Of a stretch of DNA of 32,486 nt, positions 18,541-29,358 are shown piece after piece (positions within the stretch are counted from its first letter, which is position 1; every line of letters begins with the position of its first letter). Location of the stretch: positions 1-32,486 of the forward strand of contig JAJYAT010000009.1 in the NCBI GenBank assembly GCA_021779375.1, written 5' to 3'. The position numbers and the translations under genes are program-made. The notes beneath the pieces were generated by a model. That model worked only from the letters and a program-made list of their open reading frames with translations. It was not told where the DNA came from and did no database searches. The stretch is from a bacterium. GTDB taxonomy: Bacteria > Patescibacteriota > Gracilibacteria > JAHISY01.

Positions 18541-18552
18541 CTCTTGCGTTTT

Positions 18553-21500
18553 ATGCCTTTTCCCAAAATAGATCCGAAGCAGTCTTTCCCTAAGATGGAG
18601 GAAGAGATCCTCGCGTTTTGGCAGCGGGAGAAAATTTTTGAAAAGAGTCTGGCGCGGAATCCGGCGACCAAGGAATTCAAATTTTTCGACGGTCCGCCTT
18701 TCGCAACGGGACTGCCGCACTACGGTCACATCTTGCAGGGCGTAATCAAAGACTTGATTCCAAGGTATAAAACGATGCAGGGCTACCATGTTCCGCGCAT
18801 TTGGGGCTGGGATTGCCACGGTTTGCCGGTCGAGAATTTGATCGAAAAAGAACTCGGGCTGAAAAGCAAAAAAGACATCGAGGATTTTGGCGTCGCGAAG
18901 TTCAACGAAAAATGTCGCGAGTCAGTTTTGAAATTCGCGGGCGAATGGGAAAAAACCGTCGCGCGCATGGGCCGTTGGATTGACATGGAGCACGCGTACA
19001 AAACCATGGATCTCGAATTCATGGATTCGGTTTGGTGGGTCTTCGGCGAGCTTTGGAACAAAGGTTTGATTTACGAAGGTCTGAAGCCGATGCAAGTCTG
19101 CCCACGCTGCGCCACGCCGCTGGCGAATTTCGAAGTCGGTTTGAATTACAAAGATGTCACAGATCTCTCGGCAATTGCGAAATTCGAAGTCGAAGGCGAG
19201 CCAAATACTTACCTACTCGCGTGGACGACGACACCGTGGACGCTGCCGGGAAATGTGGCGTTGGCGGTGAATCCGAAAATTGAGTATTTAAAGATAAAAG
19301 TTGATGTTTATAAATACAAAGACGGGAGCAAAACATTCAATGACACTATCATTTGGGACCAGAAAAAAGAAAAAGCTCCCGAGATCCCAATAAAGATTGG
19401 AGAAGAAACTTATATTGCATCTCGAAAATTTTTCGATAATGATTGGGCACAACACGGAAGATTCGAGACTTATTATGGAACTAAAAATTATGCATCCCTC
19501 AATGGAAGTGATTTAATTGGAAAAACCTACAAACCACTCTTCAATTATTTCGCTGACAAAGATAACTATGAAAATGTTCCCGGACTTTATTTCATCACAT
19601 TCAATACGGAAGACGGAGCTGAAATTTTTAAAGACGAAAAATTAAGATCCGCTTGTGGCGAGGCTTTTCGCGAGATTGCCGAAGAAAATAATTACGAAAT
19701 TTACGAGCTGGCGATTATGCCGGATCATGTGCACTTGGTCGTCGAAATCAAAGAAGGCGGCGCGAGTCTGCCGAAAACATTACAGCAGCTAAAGTGGTTT
19801 TCATCTTGGAAGCTCAAAGCTAATCCGTTAACCCACCAGATATCTGGTGGGTTAACTACTGGGATAGACGAAAAAACTGGGAAAGAATTCATCAAGCTTT
19901 GGCGCAAGGGTTACGACAAAAAATTCATCTATTCTGAAGATGAATATTCCAAAGTCTCTGATTATATCCGCCAAAATCCGGAGAAAAAAAATCTCCCGCC
20001 TCAAGAATACACTTGGCTGAAAATTTTTGACGATGCGAATCAACCTATTAAATTTGCCGAACAAAAACCGCAAGGTTTTCGCATCGTCGCCGCTGATTTC
20101 GTCACGACCGAAGAGGGCACGGGCATCGTTCACATCGCGCCCGCTTTCGGCGAGGACGATTACAATCTCGCGAAGAAAGAGCGTTTGCCGATTTTTCAAA
20201 ACGTCTCACTCGACGGCAGATATACCGACGCCGTCACCGACTTCGTCGGAGTCGAGGTCAAGCCGAAAGACGACCCAACCAAAACCGACCGCAAAATTGT
20301 CGAGTTCTTGGGCGAGCAAATTTTCACGACCCAAAACTACAAACACTCTTATCCGTTTTGCTGGCGCTGCGAATCCCCGCTCCTGAATTACGCGACCTCG
20401 AGCTGGTTCGTCGCGGTCGAGAAATTGAAAGCCGATTTAATCAAAAATAATTCCGGCATTAACTGGATTCCCGAACACATCAAAACCGGACGCTTCGGCA
20501 AATGGCTCGAAGGCGCACGCGATTGGGCGATTTCACGGAATCGTTTTTGGGGCGCACCACTGCCGATTTGGCGTTGTGAAAAATGCGGCGAGCTGAAGTG
20601 TCTTGCGTCGCGCGCGGAGCTGGAAAAATTGAGCGGCAAAAAAGTGGACGACCTGCACAAACATTTTGTCGATGCGATTGAGATTCCTTGCGAGAAGTGC
20701 GACGGCAAAATGCAGCGCATTCCGGAAGTCCTCGATTGCTGGTTCGAATCCGGCTCAATGCCTTTCGCGCAATTCGGCGAGAAAGCCGCAGCGCAAATCC
20801 CCGCCGACTTCATCGCCGAAGCGCAGGATCAGACGCGCGGCTGGTTTTATACTCTGCACGTCCTCGCGACTGCGCTCGCAAATAAACCCGCTTACGCGAA
20901 TTGCGTTTGCTCGGGATTAATCTTGGCAGAGGATGGCGCGAAAATGTCGAAGTCGAAACAGAACTTCCCACCGCCGCAGAAAATTTTTGACGAATTTGGC
21001 GCGGACGCGATGCGGCTTTATCTGATGAATTCGCCCGTCACACATGCCGCTGATTTGCGTTTCAGTGAGCGCGGCGTCGAGGAAATCCTGCGCGGAGTTT
21101 TGCTGCCGCTCTGGAACACTTTTTATTTCTTCACGACTTACGCGAATGCCGACGGCTGGGAGCCAACTAAAAACTTGGAACTGAAAACCCAAAACAAATT
21201 GGATGCTTGGATTCTTTCCGAACTAAATATTTTGGTGCGCGAGATGACGGCGAATCTCGAGCAATTCGAAATTCAGAAAGCTGTCGCACCACTCGAAAAA
21301 TTCCTGGACGGTCTGACGAATTGGTACGTTCGCCGCAGCCGCCGCCGTTTCTGGAAATCAGAAAACGATTCGGACAAAGGCGAAGCCTACTCAACCCTGT
21401 TTGAAGTGCTGAAAACTGTCGCGAAATTACTCGCGCCAATCACACCATTCCTCGCAGAAAAAATTTGGCAGAATCTAACCGGCGGCGAATCCGTCCATCT

Positions 21501-22248
21501 CGAATCTTGGCCGGCTTTCGACAAAAATTTGATCGACGAAAATTTGTCTGCGGAAGTCGACACGACTCGCAAAATCATTTCGCTTGGCTTGAAAATTCGC
21601 GCAAGAAACAAGATTGGCGTTAGACAACCACTTGCAAGCATTACAATTGCACTGCCTAAAAATCTAAAAATTAAAGATTCTGCTTCAATAAAAGAAGAAT
21701 TGAATGTTAAAAATGTAAAAATCGCAGAAGACCCCTACGAAATATCTAGACCAACGATAAAACTGGATAGTAAAAAAATAGGACCACGATTAGGTAAAAG
21801 AACTCAGGAAATTATAAATCTAATGAAACAAGGTGAATATGAAATTTTACCTAGCGGCGAAATCAAGGTTAGCGATGAAATAATAAAAAAAGATGAATTT
21901 ATTCTTGGATATGAGAGCAAAAGCACATTTGATTTTCTTGAGGTTGAATCCGATGAAGGCATCGTTGTGGCCATGGAGATGGTAATAACTTCAAAGCTAG
22001 CTCTTGAGGCCAGAGCAAGAGGGATTATAAGAACTATTCAAGACATGAGGAAAGCTGCTGGATATGATGTATCTGACCGAATAGAGCTTCAAATTATCGA
22101 AGCAGATGAAGTAATGGAAGAACATGGCAAGTACATAATGCAAGAAATCCTCGCAGAAAAAGTAATCAACAAGATAGAAAACTATGATTTAATGGGTGGA
22201 TTGGTAAATAGCAAAATAAAATTCGGTATTAAAAAGATTTCAAAGTAA
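18553..22248 (+). CDS. ileS: Isoleucyl-tRNA synthetase with an internal REP-type transposase domain
   Basis: Charges tRNA-Ile. All catalytic parts are intact: HIGH-type HYGH (56-59), the editing-site threonines WTTTPWTLPGN (from Trp224), GTGIVHIAPAFGEDDY (522-537), DWAISRNRFWGAPLP and KMSKS (797-801). At 1231 residues (from ATG 18553) it is about 200 longer than usual. The excess is in the CP1 editing domain. Residues about 342-494 form a complete Y1 (IS200/REP-type) transposase domain between FADKDNYEN and FRIVAADFV, segments that are adjacent in normal enzymes. The tail after about residue 1016 (from 21600) is AT-rich with many AGA codons, unlike the middle; residues about 245-340 share this trend. 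The reading frame is unbroken throughout, so the insert is translated unless removed at the protein level, for which no splicing motifs are seen. Confidence 0.93.
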   Translation: MPFPKIDPKQSFPKMEEEILAFWQREKIFEKSLARNPATKEFKFFDGPPFATGLPHYGHILQGVIKDLIPRYKTMQGYHVPRIWGWDCHGLPVENLIEKELGLKSKKDIEDFGVAKFNEKCRESVLKFAGEWEKTVARMGRWIDMEHAYKTMDLEFMDSVWWVFGELWNKGLIYEGLKPMQVCPRCATPLANFEVGLNYKDVTDLSAIAKFEVEGEPNTYLLAWTTTPWTLPGNVALAVNPKIEYLKIKVDVYKYKDGSKTFNDTIIWDQKKEKAPEIPIKIGEETYIASRKFFDNDWAQHGRFETYYGTKNYASLNGSDLIGKTYKPLFNYFADKDNYENVPGLYFITFNTEDGAEIFKDEKLRSACGEAFREIAEENNYEIYELAIMPDHVHLVVEIKEGGASLPKTLQQLKWFSSWKLKANPLTHQISGGLTTGIDEKTGKEFIKLWRKGYDKKFIYSEDEYSKVSDYIRQNPEKKNLPPQEYTWLKIFDDANQPIKFAEQKPQGFRIVAADFVTTEEGTGIVHIAPAFGEDDYNLAKKERLPIFQNVSLDGRYTDAVTDFVGVEVKPKDDPTKTDRKIVEFLGEQIFTTQNYKHSYPFCWRCESPLLNYATSSWFVAVEKLKADLIKNNSGINWIPEHIKTGRFGKWLEGARDWAISRNRFWGAPLPIWRCEKCGELKCLASRAELEKLSGKKVDDLHKHFVDAIEIPCEKCDGKMQRIPEVLDCWFESGSMPFAQFGEKAAAQIPADFIAEAQDQTRGWFYTLHVLATALANKPAYANCVCSGLILAEDGAKMSKSKQNFPPPQKIFDEFGADAMRLYLMNSPVTHAADLRFSERGVEEILRGVLLPLWNTFYFFTTYANADGWEPTKNLELKTQNKLDAWILSELNILVREMTANLEQFEIQKAVAPLEKFLDGLTNWYVRRSRRRFWKSENDSDKGEAYSTLFEVLKTVAKLLAPITPFLAEKIWQNLTGGESVHLESWPAFDKNLIDENLSAEVDTTRKIISLGLKIRARNKIGVRQPLASITIALPKNLKIKDSASIKEELNVKNVKIAEDPYEISRPTIKLDSKKIGPRLGKRTQEIINLMKQGEYEILPSGEIKVSDEIIKKDEFILGYESKSTFDFLEVESDEGIVVAMEMVITSKLALEARARGIIRTIQDMRKAAGYDVSDRIELQIIEADEVMEEHGKYIMQEILAEKVINKIENYDLMGGLVNSKIKFGIKKISK
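19576..20034 (+). mobile_element. REP-associated tyrosine transposase (Y1, HUH) domain inside ileS
   Basis: It begins GLYFITFNTEDGAEIFKDEK, the usual N-terminal strand and helix of Y1 transposases. The metal-binding HUH motif is in IMPDHVHLVVE (His392, His394 in ileS numbering). After the KWFSSWKLK helix comes KLWRKGYDKKFIYSEDEY, the equivalent of the family's VWQRGYYDHIIR segment. The expected catalytic tyrosine is Tyr471 in YIRQNPEKKNL (family form YI..NPVRAGL). Order and spacing match stand-alone proteins of about 150 residues. REP-associated transposases of this type nick single-stranded REP hairpins. No start codon with a ribosome site precedes the domain, so it is seen only as part of ileS. 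All catalytic residues are kept, so it may be active or only recently inserted. Confidence 0.85.
19827..19856. repeat. Perfect 30-bp palindrome inside the transposase domain, in frame
   Basis: The arms are GTTAACCCACCAGA and its exact complement around the centre TATC/GATATC; all 30 positions are symmetric. It encodes LTHQISGGLT (ileS 426-435), placed between the KWFSSWKLK helix and the KLWRKGY segment where relatives have only a short link. It matches the recG palindrome in length, ends and phase. Confidence 0.88.
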
Positions 22249-25479: not shown

Positions 25480-26967
25480 ATGAGTACTGCCCGCAAAGTT
25501 TTATCAAACACCGCCGTCCAAATGCTCGGACAACTCACGACTGCCGGCGTCGCGATCGTGATTTTGAAATTGATCTCGAGCTACCTCGGCGCGTCCGGCT
25601 ACGGTGCCTACACTACTGTTTACAGCTTTCTCGCTTTCTTCGCTATCATCGCGGACTTCGGCATTTTCCAAATTACGGTGAAAGAAATGAGCGCGCATCC
25701 TGAAAAACGCGCTGAAATCTTCGGCAATATTTTCGCGCTACGCATCTGCCTCTCGCTCTTCGCCATGCTCGCTTCGGTCGCCACAGCCTTCATAATTCCG
25801 AAATACACCGGCACGCCCATCCCGCTCGGCATCGCCATCGCCAGTGCCACGACCTTTTTGACGATTGTTTTCGGGACGCTCTCCTCGCTGCTGCAAGTCG
25901 ACCTGCGTATGCAGTGGAATGCGCTCGGTCTCGTCGCTTCGAAATTCGTCGCACTCGGCTGGATGCTCGCGACCATTTTCAAATATTTCCCGGACAATCC
26001 TGAAGCCGGATTTTTTCAGCTGCTCATCGCTGGCATCGTCGGCGGCATCTTCCAGGTCGCGATTGTCCTCTGGGCAGCCCGCGGTGATGAGCTCAAGCTG
26101 CGCTTTGATTTTCGCTTTTGGAAAGAAATCCTGATCAAAACTCTGCCCTACGGCGGTGCCGTCTTGCTCGCGACGATTTATGTGCGTCTGGATGTCATCC
26201 TGCTTTCGCTGATGCGCAACAGCACAGAGGTCGGCATCTACGGCGTCGCGGCGCGCGTGATGGAAAATCTCGCGGTCATCTCGATTTTATTTTTGAATTC
26301 GACGCTTCCGGCAGTCTCGCGGCTTTTTCGCACAAATAAAGAACGCCTGAAAAAAATGCTGCAATATTCCTTTGATTTCCTGAGCATCATCGCGCTCCCA
26401 ATCGTCGTCGGCGGCAGTGTCCTCGCCTATCCGATCGTCGCGCTCGTCTCCTCGCCGGAATTTTTGTCGAATCCCGCCACTGGCTTCTACGGCTCGGATC
26501 TCGCGCTGCAAATCCTACTTTTCACGATGCTACTCGCTTACTTCGGCAATCTGCTCGGCTTCGCGCTGCTCGCGGGCAATGCGCAACTCAAACTGTTTTA
26601 CGTGAATTCCTCAGCTGTCGTCTTCAATCTCGTGCTAAATCTCGCCGTCATCCCATTCTGGGGTTTTCGCGGAGCAGCCGTCGCCAGCGTCGCCAGCCAG
26701 ATTTTCGTTTGCACACTCGATTACATTTTCTTGAGGAAAATCATCGACATCACTTTCAATCTGCGGACGACTATCAAAGCCACCATCGCGGCAGCAGTCA
26801 TGGGCAGCGCGGTCTGGTGGCTCGAGCCAATCTTCCTGAATTTCTTAGGACCAAATAAAGGCGTCCTGCTCCTGATCCCAGTCGGCGGCTTAGTCTATGG
26901 TTTGATGCTGCTTTTGCTTCGGGCAATCACGCCGGAGATGCGCGCGCTGCTACGAAAACAGGCTTAA
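25480..26967 (+). CDS. Polysaccharide/lipid-linked oligosaccharide flippase (MOP superfamily)
   Basis: A 495-residue integral membrane protein with about 12-14 helices, of the Wzx/RfbX (PST) type. It opens with KVLSNTAVQMLGQLTTAGVAIVILKLISSYLG and an LGASGYGAYTTVYSF motif, the usual first helices of the family. DFRFWKEILIKTLPYGGAVLLATIYVRLDVILLSLM marks the second half. It moves lipid-linked sugars across the membrane; the exact substrate cannot be read. MurJ is a more distant relative and less likely, given the LGASGYGAY motif. No glycosyltransferase genes are next to it. Confidence 0.85.
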   Translation: MSTARKVLSNTAVQMLGQLTTAGVAIVILKLISSYLGASGYGAYTTVYSFLAFFAIIADFGIFQITVKEMSAHPEKRAEIFGNIFALRICLSLFAMLASVATAFIIPKYTGTPIPLGIAIASATTFLTIVFGTLSSLLQVDLRMQWNALGLVASKFVALGWMLATIFKYFPDNPEAGFFQLLIAGIVGGIFQVAIVLWAARGDELKLRFDFRFWKEILIKTLPYGGAVLLATIYVRLDVILLSLMRNSTEVGIYGVAARVMENLAVISILFLNSTLPAVSRLFRTNKERLKKMLQYSFDFLSIIALPIVVGGSVLAYPIVALVSSPEFLSNPATGFYGSDLALQILLFTMLLAYFGNLLGFALLAGNAQLKLFYVNSSAVVFNLVLNLAVIPFWGFRGAAVASVASQIFVCTLDYIFLRKIIDITFNLRTTIKATIAAAVMGSAVWWLEPIFLNFLGPNKGVLLLIPVGGLVYGLMLLLLRAITPEMRALLRKQA

Positions 26968-27013: not shown

Positions 27014-27042
27014 TTGACAAATACCAACTTATGGTTTAGATT
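27014..27042 (+). promoter_or_regulatory. Consensus sigma-70-type promoter of the two-gene cassette
   Basis: A perfect -35 TTGACA (27014-27019) and a -10 TAGATT (27037-27042) are separated by exactly 17 nt. This is the only consensus -35 I see in the window. Transcription should start near 27049, leaving a leader of about 210 nt. Confidence 0.8.
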
Positions 27043-27081
27043 TCCATTTCCCAGTTTATTTTTTGCTCCTTGAAATCACGC

Positions 27082-27220
27082 GTAGTGGGGATTCATTCGG
27101 TTTGGTGGTTGGCGAAACCCGCGAGGGAAGTCGCTAATCCGAGACCGAATCCCCTCTCCACTACTCAGTCGAGGTTGGCGATTTGCTTGTGAATTTCGCA
27201 GGTGAGCCGTCAATCTCGAC
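27082..27220 (+). promoter_or_regulatory. Structured 5' leader RNA of unknown class
   Basis: The first element (27082-27164) is a long rod: GTAGTGG pairs with CCACTAC, GGGGATTC/TCGGTTT with GACCGAATCCCC, and GGTTGGCGA with TCGCTAATCC, capped by CCC-GCGA-GGG, a GNRA tetraloop. The second element (27168-27220) pairs GTCGAG with CTCGAC and GTTGGC with GCCGTCAA. The elements lie between the promoter and an exposed AGGAGG site, the layout of a cis-acting regulatory RNA. I match it to no known riboswitch. No intrinsic terminator is evident between the leader and the gene, so any control would more likely act on translation. Confidence 0.6.
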
Positions 27221-27245
27221 TAACCAATAACTTTAAAATGCTCTT

Positions 27246-27251
27246 AGGAGG
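27246..27251 (+). promoter_or_regulatory. Strong Shine-Dalgarno site
   Basis: A full AGGAGG lies 6 nt before the ATG at 27258. Almost no other gene in the window has such a site, so this marks the cassette as different. Confidence 0.85.
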
Positions 27252-27257
27252 AATCAA

Positions 27258-27572
27258 ATGGAGTTCAAAAATTTTGCGACAGTAAAAGCCGTAATCGTAA
27301 TGTTGTTGTTGGGTCTTGTTATTATTTTTGGGCTGTCTCGCATCACAGCCCAGACCCCTGCCCATCGACCAGCCGCCTCGACGTTCGCACCAAGTCAAAA
27401 CATTATCGTTACTGCAAAAGTCTATGCAGATGCGGTTGTTTACGCGTCTGCTCGGGACGAGCACGGCGAAGATGTCGTGCTCTCCGAGCGTGATTTCAAC
27501 CGCGCAGAAAGCGCGGCTACGAAATCCTGGCTAAAAAACGGTAAACAAAGAGAATTCAACCTCAATAATTGA
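27258..27572 (+). CDS. Small signal-anchored protein, cassette gene 1
   Basis: A 104-residue protein that I do not recognise. A membrane helix at about 9-27 is followed by ITAQTPAH, which could be a signal-peptidase site, and then a short exported part. The exported part has a predicted strand pair (NIIVTAKVYADAVVYASARDEHGEDVVLSE) and a basic, Asn-rich tail. Cys is absent. It is the first gene behind the leader RNA and has the AGGAGG site. The second gene follows after 30 nt with its own ribosome site. Homology is unknown; both genes are read as real because of promoter, ribosome sites and terminator. Confidence 0.72.
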   Translation: MEFKNFATVKAVIVMLLLGLVIIFGLSRITAQTPAHRPAASTFAPSQNIIVTAKVYADAVVYASARDEHGEDVVLSERDFNRAESAATKSWLKNGKQREFNLNN

Positions 27573-27602
27573 GAAGGGAGCACTGCTCTCGAAAGGAAAG
27601 CC

Positions 27603-28109
27603 ATGAAACATTTTGCCATTTTAGTTTTAGTAGTTCTCGTAATGTGTGTCCTGGGACTGGTTGCTCTTGGACTCTACAAAACCCAACAACCCGCCCCGAA
27701 TACCGAGAACCCGGCTCAAACCGAATCGCCAGTCTCCGTAGGCGATTTTTACTCGGTTAAACCAGGCGAAGTCGTTCGGTTACAAGGCTATTGCCTTGGA
27801 AATGACGACCCTGATCAGTGCTCTGAACATGCAGTCTTCGTCGCATGCTTAGAAAATGAAAGTCGGTTACTAATTAAGGCAACCGTCTGGCCCAATCTCT
27901 GGGAATATCAGATTGATGTCAAGCGCCTCCTCTTGGTTGAGGAGATTGTCACCACAGATAAAGTTCCCGATAACGAGATTGCTCAGGTTCTCCAGGCACT
28001 CCTCGGCGAAGGCATGGTTGACGAAATCCTAAAAGATTTTGAGATGGCCGCCACTGACGACCCCGACAACACCGAGCCACCTTTTCTGGACAAGTCCAAA
28101 GGATTTTAA
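27603..28109 (+). CDS. Small signal-anchored protein, cassette gene 2
   Basis: A 168-residue protein that I do not recognise. A membrane helix at about 4-25 precedes a Pro/Asn/Thr-rich linker (about 27-46) and a compact domain of about 100 residues: VKPGEVVRLQGYC, HAVFVACLENESRLLIKATVW and IDVKRLLLVEEIV are strand-like, and EIAQVLQALLGEGMVDEILKDFEM is helical. Three Cys (64, 73, 82) lie in the domain; CLGNDDPDQC could form a disulfide. The tail is acidic. A GAAAGGA ribosome site precedes the ATG. The strands resemble a small OB-type beta fold, but this is only a guess. Confidence 0.74.
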   Translation: MKHFAILVLVVLVMCVLGLVALGLYKTQQPAPNTENPAQTESPVSVGDFYSVKPGEVVRLQGYCLGNDDPDQCSEHAVFVACLENESRLLIKATVWPNLWEYQIDVKRLLLVEEIVTTDKVPDNEIAQVLQALLGEGMVDEILKDFEMAATDDPDNTEPPFLDKSKGF

Positions 28110-28138
28110 ATCTCTCGGTTTTTCGGAGAGGGGAAAAT

Positions 28139-28175
28139 GGACCGGCTTAGCTTCATTGCGAACCGGTCCCTTTTC
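28139..28175. terminator. Terminator between the cassette and the M23 gene
   Basis: GGACCGG (28139-28145) pairs with CCGGTCC (28163-28169), followed by CTTTT on the plus strand and ATTTTCCCC on the minus strand. It can end both the cassette (+) and the M23 gene (-). A smaller CTCTC/GAGAG hairpin lies just before it (28112-28130). Confidence 0.7.
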
Positions 28176-28245: not shown

Positions 28246-29358
28246 CTAGTAAAAAGCGAGCGGATTTTTCTTGATACCATTATCCACGACTTCGAAGTGA
28301 AGGTGGATACCAGTCGCACCGTAGACACGACCGGTGTTGCCCATCGTGCCAATCTTCTGACCTTGCTGGACAGAATCACCAGCCGACACCGCTAATTCGG
28401 AGAGATGACCGTACAAAGTCTGGAAGCCGTCGCCATGGTCGATGACAATCACGCAACCGTAGCCGCCATTCCAGCCACATTGCGATTTCACGACTGTGCC
28501 ATCGGCAGCCGCGTGAATCGGCGGTTTGCTGCGGTCAGCGATATCGACCGCCCAGTGTCCACTGTGAAAATACTGAGAATAAATGCCATTCGTCGGCTTG
28601 ATCATCCATGTTCCGTCTTTGTCCTGCGCTCCATTCGCGACGATGATCGCACCGTCGACGGAAGCCGGCGCACGATAGCTCGCGTAGGTCCCCGGCGCAG
28701 AGGCAATGTAATTGCGTTTCGATGCTGGCGGCGCAGCGATAATTTTCTTGCCGCCCGGAATGATGATTTTCGCGCCTGCGACTAGCGTGCCGTCAGCCAA
28801 ATCGTTTTGTTTGGAAATCTTGTCCTCCTCGACGCCGTATTTTTTCGCGACCGCTGCGAGCGTATCACCTGCTTTCACTTCGTGCATGACTCCCGAAACC
28901 GGCAAAATCGAAAGCTCCATACCCGGTTTCAGCTGTTGTGGATTGGAAATGTTATTTTCCCAAATGATGGTGTCCATCGAAACACCGAAACGGCGCGCAA
29001 TCGACGACAGCACATCGCCGCTCTCGACGGTGTATTTGATTGGATCGCTCAGCCCGGAATTATCGACCTCGGCACTTTGACCGGCGTTTTTGAGCAGAAA
29101 TCCGTCTTCCGTCATCGCCAGCGTATCAAGTGTGAAGGTCGGCGAATCAATCGCGAGCGGTCCGCCACCTCCATAATCCGCCTCAGCCAATTCAGCGACT
29201 GCGCCACCTGGCAAGAAAAATGGTGCGAGCAGGACGGAACTGGCGAGTGTGAAGACCTGGATGGCGAGTCGGCGACGTGGTGAACTCTGGTGCTGCTGTT
29301 TGAGTTTCTGGATTCTTTCCCGGCGGGCAGCGATACTTACTCTTGATCGAAACAACAT
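28246..29358 (-). CDS. LysM-containing M23 metallo-endopeptidase
   Basis: A cell-wall hydrolase anchored in, or exported through, the membrane. A basic N-terminus (RRERIQKLK, SPRRR) precedes a hydrophobic helix at about 31-50. Two LysM peptidoglycan-binding domains lie at about 107-153 and 158-201. The lysostaphin/LytM catalytic domain (258-370) has zinc ligands His268 and Asp272 in GHWAVD and the HLHFE motif (352-356), so it should be active; degenerate activators of the EnvC type lack these. Cys294 and Cys302 could form a disulfide. FtsEX controls such enzymes in other bacteria, which links it loosely to the ftsE-like gene. The start is ATG at 29358; a longer frame is closed. Confidence 0.92.
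   Translation of the reverse strand: MLFRSRVSIAARRERIQKLKQQHQSSPRRRLAIQVFTLASSVLLAPFFLPGGAVAELAEADYGGGGPLAIDSPTFTLDTLAMTEDGFLLKNAGQSAEVDNSGLSDPIKYTVESGDVLSSIARRFGVSMDTIIWENNISNPQQLKPGMELSILPVSGVMHEVKAGDTLAAVAKKYGVEEDKISKQNDLADGTLVAGAKIIIPGGKKIIAAPPASKRNYIASAPGTYASYRAPASVDGAIIVANGAQDKDGTWMIKPTNGIYSQYFHSGHWAVDIADRSKPPIHAAADGTVVKSQCGWNGGYGCVIVIDHGDGFQTLYGHLSELAVSAGDSVQQGQKIGTMGNTGRVYGATGIHLHFEVVDNGIKKNPLAFY

Follow-up and report, generated by a model that had tools for sequence, protein, structure and literature searches.

In the window, by which we mean the whole 32,486-nucleotide stretch of DNA that was analysed, a two-gene cassette lies between a flippase-type gene (25480-26967, forward strand) and a LysM/M23 peptidase gene (28246-29358, reverse strand). 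The host genome (G000) is a 1.07-Mb assembly in 14 contigs and is 98% complete. The features of the cassette are collected in Table 1. Its promoter is the joint best sigma70-like match between 22.5 and 32.5 kb, with a score of 10/12. An earlier note on this DNA, made from the letters alone, had described TTGACA with 17-nt spacing, two strong ribosome sites and a clear terminator, and all of these are present where it placed them. Its remark that the unit breaks every rule of the window is overstated, as GC content drops only slightly, to ~0.48 against 0.50 to 0.55.

Table 1. Features of the cassette, numbered from the first position of the window
Feature	Position	Strand	Remarks
Sigma70-type promoter, TTGACA-17-TAGATT	27014-27042	+	TTGACA 27014-27019, TAGATT 27037-27042
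boxA GCTCCTTGAAATC, rRNA-operon antitermination signal (predicted NusB-S10 site)	27065-27077	+	From PWM and the host's own rrn leader
Rod hairpin: helix 1, 3x4 internal loop, helices 2-3, AA/AAG loop, GNRA cap	27082-27164	+	
Second long hairpin: 14 bp, 1x1 loop, 11 bp, triloop	27167-27221	+	From fold
Shine-Dalgarno AGGAGG, gene 1	27246-27251	+	Start codon ATG at 27258
Gene 1, 104 aa, signal-anchored small orphan	27258-27572	+	
Shine-Dalgarno GAAAGGA, gene 2	27591-27597	+	Start codon ATG at 27603
Gene 2, 168 aa, one N-terminal TM helix, three-Cys outer domain, orphan	27603-28109	+	
Intrinsic terminator-like hairpin, GGACCGG...CCGGTCC-CTTTT	28139-28175	+	7-bp G+C-rich stem, then T run

The leader is a conserved structured RNA family

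The leader folds at -91 kcal/mol (z = -7.5), a stability equalled by none of 200 shuffles, and the region of the second hairpin folded alone gives z = -6.9. The fold confirms the two-hairpin leader with a GNRA-capped rod that had been read from the sequence, the cap being CCC-GCGA-GGG. Helix 1 of the rod is the pre-16S-like GUAG-UGGGGA/UCUCCACUAC, and the conserved 3x4 internal loop sets UUC (27092-27094) against CCCC (27151-27154). No match to the leader was found in Rfam 15, even at a relaxed E-value, and no family gathering threshold was reached; nor did the open-access literature yield an earlier report of it. The possibility that the rod is tRNA-like was dropped, as ARAGORN reported no tRNA.

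In a DNA search of 60 relatives, the only part with a counterpart was the rod, which is 75% identical at the corresponding site of the sister species G004; there it has the same flanking genes as in the window, with a different gene behind the leader. The two rods share their fold, and a covariance model built on both found a third copy at another locus in G002, which keeps the 9-bp apical helix, the AA/AAG internal loop and the cap in quite different letters. Models rebuilt with three and then seven members reached families f18, f5 and f33. Altogether the leader is found at 27 to 28 loci, spread over some 25 genomes that all belong to this class (families f1, f5, f18 and f33; E-values from 1e-22 to 6e-4), counts that miss some copies because the many-genome searches used stricter filters, and that may include false positives among the weak members. 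Outside the class, phylum samples of 380 and 287 genomes gave nothing convincing. Three genomes (G319, G338 and G006) were excluded from the leader counts. Three early covariance matches were judged false from their context: those in G218, a short hairpin behind rplL, and in G007 and G566 (within an rpoD-like coding sequence). A pattern scan of the genome contigs returned G004 and two chance matches (Treponema, Anaerolinea).

Most members in f1 and f18 have a promoter scoring 9 to 12 of 12, mostly TTGACA with 17-nt spacing, at the equivalent place; scores of 10/12 or higher occur in 1.5% of control windows. A long hairpin resembling the second one also occupies the equivalent position in most f1 and f18 members and is absent from f5. 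A very stable rod hairpin is found in every member, with z from -2.4 to -9.1. The consensus runs from boxA across mostly 3-9 nt to GUAG-NGR-GA, the loop strand KUC, AU-helix 2, and a variable helix 3 with its cap; the 3' half then returns through helix 2, CCCC and UC-YCN-CUAC. The internal loop varies in f18, where GCC/CCTC takes the place of KUC/CCCC.

Covariation supports the helices of the rod. Among three sequences, 12 of 32 pairs are changed on both sides, against a shuffle mean of 4.6, and among seven sequences the count is 18 of 32. With 27 sequences, 28 of 32 pairs show double changes, amounting to 160 double-changed cells versus 56.6 ± 6.4 after shuffling and at most 66 in a slid control; the alignment behind these figures was fitted to the model, yet the structure had been defined without 20 of the 27 sequences. 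The homologous leaders thus show compensatory changes, the generic mark of a cis-regulatory structured RNA and the check that the earlier note had proposed, which makes the leader a conserved family of structured RNAs within the class. The family resembles the orphan cis-regulatory RNA motifs listed as riboswitch candidates in Rfam in that a covarying leader precedes genes of unassigned function; unlike them, it has no Rfam 15 entry to match.

The interval between the flippase and peptidase genes lacks the cassette in four relatives (G001, G002, G003 and G005). In G001 (L029, C96) this interval holds a stretch translating as VIPDLIGNP, which we take to be typical of short repeated palindromes. 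In two f5 genomes (G030 and G219; L043, L067), alone among the loci read, the leader has a XerC/D-like tyrosine recombinase gene a short way upstream, whose proximity is probably chance or local synteny. Some members of the class read through TGA, as seen in a peptidase search.

The leader opens with a boxA and a stem with some likeness to the pre-16S leader

For comparison, rrn leaders of the same organisms and their relatives were obtained through Rfam RF00177, and a boxA PWM was built on 19 rrn boxes chosen by eye in the leaders beforehand. The PWM matches 27 of the 28 cassette leaders directly 5' of the rod (p ≤ 0.035 versus shuffles), the exception being G192, which gave no match. In locus-specific controls, ≤3.3% of control windows reach the boxA score for 26/28 leaders. 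The host's own rrn leader carries GCTCCTTGATTTC (in a longer read, TTGCTCCTTGATTTCTCGG). The cassette carries GCTCCTTGAAATC, the sole exact match in the window (in a longer read, TTGCTCCTTGAAATCACGC). A boxA like that of the species' own rrn operon is found in 27/28 members. The element lies within the predicted transcribed leader, downstream of the promoter, and the same order is seen in most f1 and f18 members.

The boxes also follow lineage in part. Those of f1 and f18 cassettes are CTTTGAAA-like, while rrn leaders in f5 have CTTTCACA, CATTCACA or CCTTCACA and several f5 cassettes have CCTTCACA or CATTCACA. Such sharing of the TTCACA variant between f5 rrn leaders and cassettes is as expected if one binding factor reads both. 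Judged by sequence comparison, the identification of the cassette element as a boxA is well supported.

The likeness to rRNA operons extends into the stem. In rrn leaders outside f1, a gap of 5-7 nt separates boxA from GTAGTAGAGAAG. By duplex prediction this element, often together with boxA, pairs with the post-16S spacer (CTTCTCTACTCTGTAATGCTGTGAATG in G030, for example), which makes it most probably the strand that the leader contributes to the pre-16S leader-trailer helix. The rod base is similar in sequence, yet its pairing partner lies within the rod. Taken alone, this likeness is moderate: it reaches p ≤ 0.05 in 15/28 members and is not significant in 13/28, so that it is supported, not proven. 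The gap between boxA and rod in cassettes, mostly 3-9 nt (32 nt in G001), agrees with the rrn spacing outside f1. Within f1, rrn leaders place 31-59 nt between boxA and GTAGCGGGAA, more than most f1 cassettes do.

The rRNA genes of the class have a peculiarity of their own. In some members (for example G219, G054 and G271; L085-L121), the 16S rRNA is matched in several separate pieces, the pattern that an inserted or fragmented rRNA gene would give; rRNA insertions in CPR have been described (PMC11270868).

The genes behind the leader differ among families

Both window products are small and signal-anchored, with a hydrophobic N-terminal segment in each ORF, and protein 2 has three Cys in its outer domain, as the earlier note had said. 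They also stay unrecognised: no relative of either was found, and profile searches of Pfam, NCBIfam, PHROG and PADLOC gave matches at noise level only, as they did for the other leader-borne products (libraries varied by product). A structure prediction of protein 2, made without relatives, was uninformative, with a confident N-terminal helix and a poor remainder (pLDDT 48).

In f1, the products (window proteins 1 and 2 and those of G001, G002, G004 and the second G004 copy) are signal-bearing and mostly small, and BLASTP among them detects no mutual homology. Because these products are unrelated and the site is empty in four relatives, we conclude that in f1 the leader is conserved and gene and locus vary, either by exchange or by very fast divergence. 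For the window cassette, its absence from four relatives and the lack of relatives of its proteins mean that what it encodes may be recent or may have been replaced. In f18, by comparison, five loci encode secreted proteins with a common Cys-containing domain, and in five genomes, four of them among those five, the leader lies downstream of the same VirD4-type ATPase gene. Nearly all f5 loci, though not that of G237, encode one ~120-aa family that lacks a signal peptide, and there the ribosome site comes immediately after the rod (ten loci: L056-L058, L061, L062, L066, L067 and L070-L072; consensus ...W..MPH...G.L.I.KP.GTQ...V.AW..Q...W..LF.PV....V.R.IDLG.YRILWYVLH....QD.CVVL.KP). No one protein function can hold for all members, because the f5 products are not secreted. 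A role at the envelope or surface, one of the possibilities raised in the earlier note, is plausible for the f1 and f18 products and does not extend to the f5 members; the link to envelope stress is unsupported.

A possible rRNA-style route for messenger RNA

We propose, with a probability of roughly 0.55, that the unit is an mRNA with a pre-rRNA-type 5' leader that is Nus-loaded and probably cut by RNase III and that drives the production of abundant, fast-evolving small proteins. Behind a strong housekeeping promoter come boxA and then the rod, whose base would copy the strand that the leader gives to the pre-16S leader-trailer helix but pairs locally, where the rRNA precursor uses the 16S trailer; usually a second long hairpin comes next, ahead of a strong ribosome site and one or two small genes. 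We infer Nus-factor binding, RNA processing and protein function as follows. NusB-S10 and other Nus factors would load on boxA as in rRNA, and RNase III, or the enzyme that processes pre-16S, would probably cut the hairpins. By analogy, an rRNA-type complex would transcribe the message and the hairpins would be trimmed, giving high, growth-linked output, so that transcription and 5' maturation of the message would be coupled to the rRNA pathway. The products, presumably exported in f1 and f18, would be abundant and fast-evolving, and divergence or exchange would then alter the gene while leaving the regulatory head in front of it unchanged.

Several lines of evidence are consistent with this proposal, among them the covariation, the spread of the family over the class, the boxA matches with their lineage pattern and the partial likeness of the rod base to the rrn stem. 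In E. coli, a boxA is enough for Nus factors to be recruited, and RNase III acts on leader-trailer helices (PMC10250234). The cassette shares with the rRNA operon leader described there the boxA sequence and a strong sigma70 promoter and shows, to the extent given above, a similar boxA-stem spacing and GUAG...GAGA stem strand; it differs in that its stem is a local hairpin with extra conserved internal loops, followed by a Shine-Dalgarno sequence and small protein genes instead of 16S rRNA. Synteny of the leader is kept in G004 and in five f18 genomes. The earlier picture of a self-contained, probably highly expressed and regulated unit gains support as well, the leader being a genuine structured RNA.

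Phage T7-type RNase III processing hairpins lie in mRNA leaders and are irregular, a small asymmetric internal loop separating two helices. The rod resembles them in this shape; unlike them, it is combined with a boxA and has no phage genes nearby.

Other observations count against the proposal. The G192 leader has no boxA match, the rrn gaps of f1 exceed those of most f1 cassettes, and in 13/28 members helix 1 falls short of a significant likeness to the pre-16S stem. The unsecreted f5 proteins, which leave the members without a shared protein function, are a further difficulty. Antitermination would also gain little, because the unit is only ~1.1 kb long and has its own terminator. A broader claim, that a class of mRNA leaders in these Patescibacteria, imitating the rRNA precursor by boxA and a locally closed pre-16S-like stem, ties fast-evolving small surface or secreted proteins to rRNA transcription and processing, with output following ribosome synthesis, is one that we hold tentatively, at a little short of even odds.

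The main rival has the opposite sign, which is known for boxA on E. coli mRNAs: in the accessible text of PMC5725501, boxA lies in the 5' UTR of suhB and of a ParE-like toxin gene, ≤ ~50 nt from the start codon, and represses; these are different genes in different phyla, and that text describes no covarying rod for them. By this account NusB-S10 recruited to boxA would lower expression, and the gene would be made only while rRNA synthesis draws off Nus factors. The boxA matches in 27/28 leaders serve it equally, and the two repressed genes are the only tested boxA-bearing mRNAs that we found, as far as the accessible text goes. Against it, a high output is suggested by the strong promoter, AGGAGG and terminator, and control of the suhB type needs no extra covarying rod. 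Nor does a switch in which boxA pairs with and masks the ribosome site exceed its control (mean pairing 0.47 versus 0.43 with shuffled boxA, and higher in only 9/21). We regard repression as unlikely.

Conserved internal loops (KUC/CCCC and AA/AAG) within covarying helices, with a ribosome site just downstream, would also suit an element that binds a metabolite or protein and gates translation. Yet the genes downstream have no common metabolic or transport function, the loops vary in f18, no conserved alternative fold or pairing to the Shine-Dalgarno sequence was found, and a riboswitch would not need a boxA and a stem sequence in common with rRNA operons; we consider such a sensor quite improbable. 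Slightly more doubtful still is a purely stabilising role, in which the very stable hairpins of every member would protect or process the 5' end and boxA would be coincidental: the box occurs in 27/28 leaders at mostly fixed spacing and partly tracks the rrn boxA of its lineage, and the internal loop is conserved in sequence.

A mobile cassette, its hairpin serving as an attC- or REP-like single-stranded DNA site for recombination or transposition of small genes, would account for one leader with different genes in f1, for the G002 copy elsewhere and for the empty sites, but is very improbable given one or two copies per genome (usually one), placement 5' of genes, orientation with promoter before and Shine-Dalgarno after, a conserved f18 locus and no attC R-box; an integron would have attC-type hairpins 3' of genes, many copies and an integrase. 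Origin outside the host, as suggested in the earlier note, or from phage was likewise rejected, as the leader occurs throughout the class with the host's own rRNA-leader signal and at the same place in G004, and three rod patterns found no match in IMG/VR.

Implications of an rRNA-like head on variable genes

In these tiny, uncultured bacteria, a constant rRNA-like head on variable small, often exported proteins suggests messages that are made and processed in rRNA style. To our knowledge, antitermination by Nus factors is mostly regarded as a matter of rRNA and phages, and few mRNA targets are known; if the proposal holds, a conserved family of mRNAs headed by a complete pre-rRNA-style leader would add to it protein genes of Patescibacteria, a group in which, as far as we know, gene regulation is almost unknown and few species are culturable. 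The leader may also mark strongly expressed, lineage-specific and mostly exported proteins, which would be candidate mediators of contact with host cells or neighbours of other kinds, and the covariance model is available for finding further members.

Elsewhere in the window, the IleRS gene (18544-22248) has an in-frame insertion of ~200 aa in the region of the editing domain. The insertion matches Y1_Tnp (IS200-like/REP transposase, E = 2e-11, with the HVH motif), and in a comparison with the solved IleRS 8c8u, residues 253-500 are placed between its residues 247 and 287.
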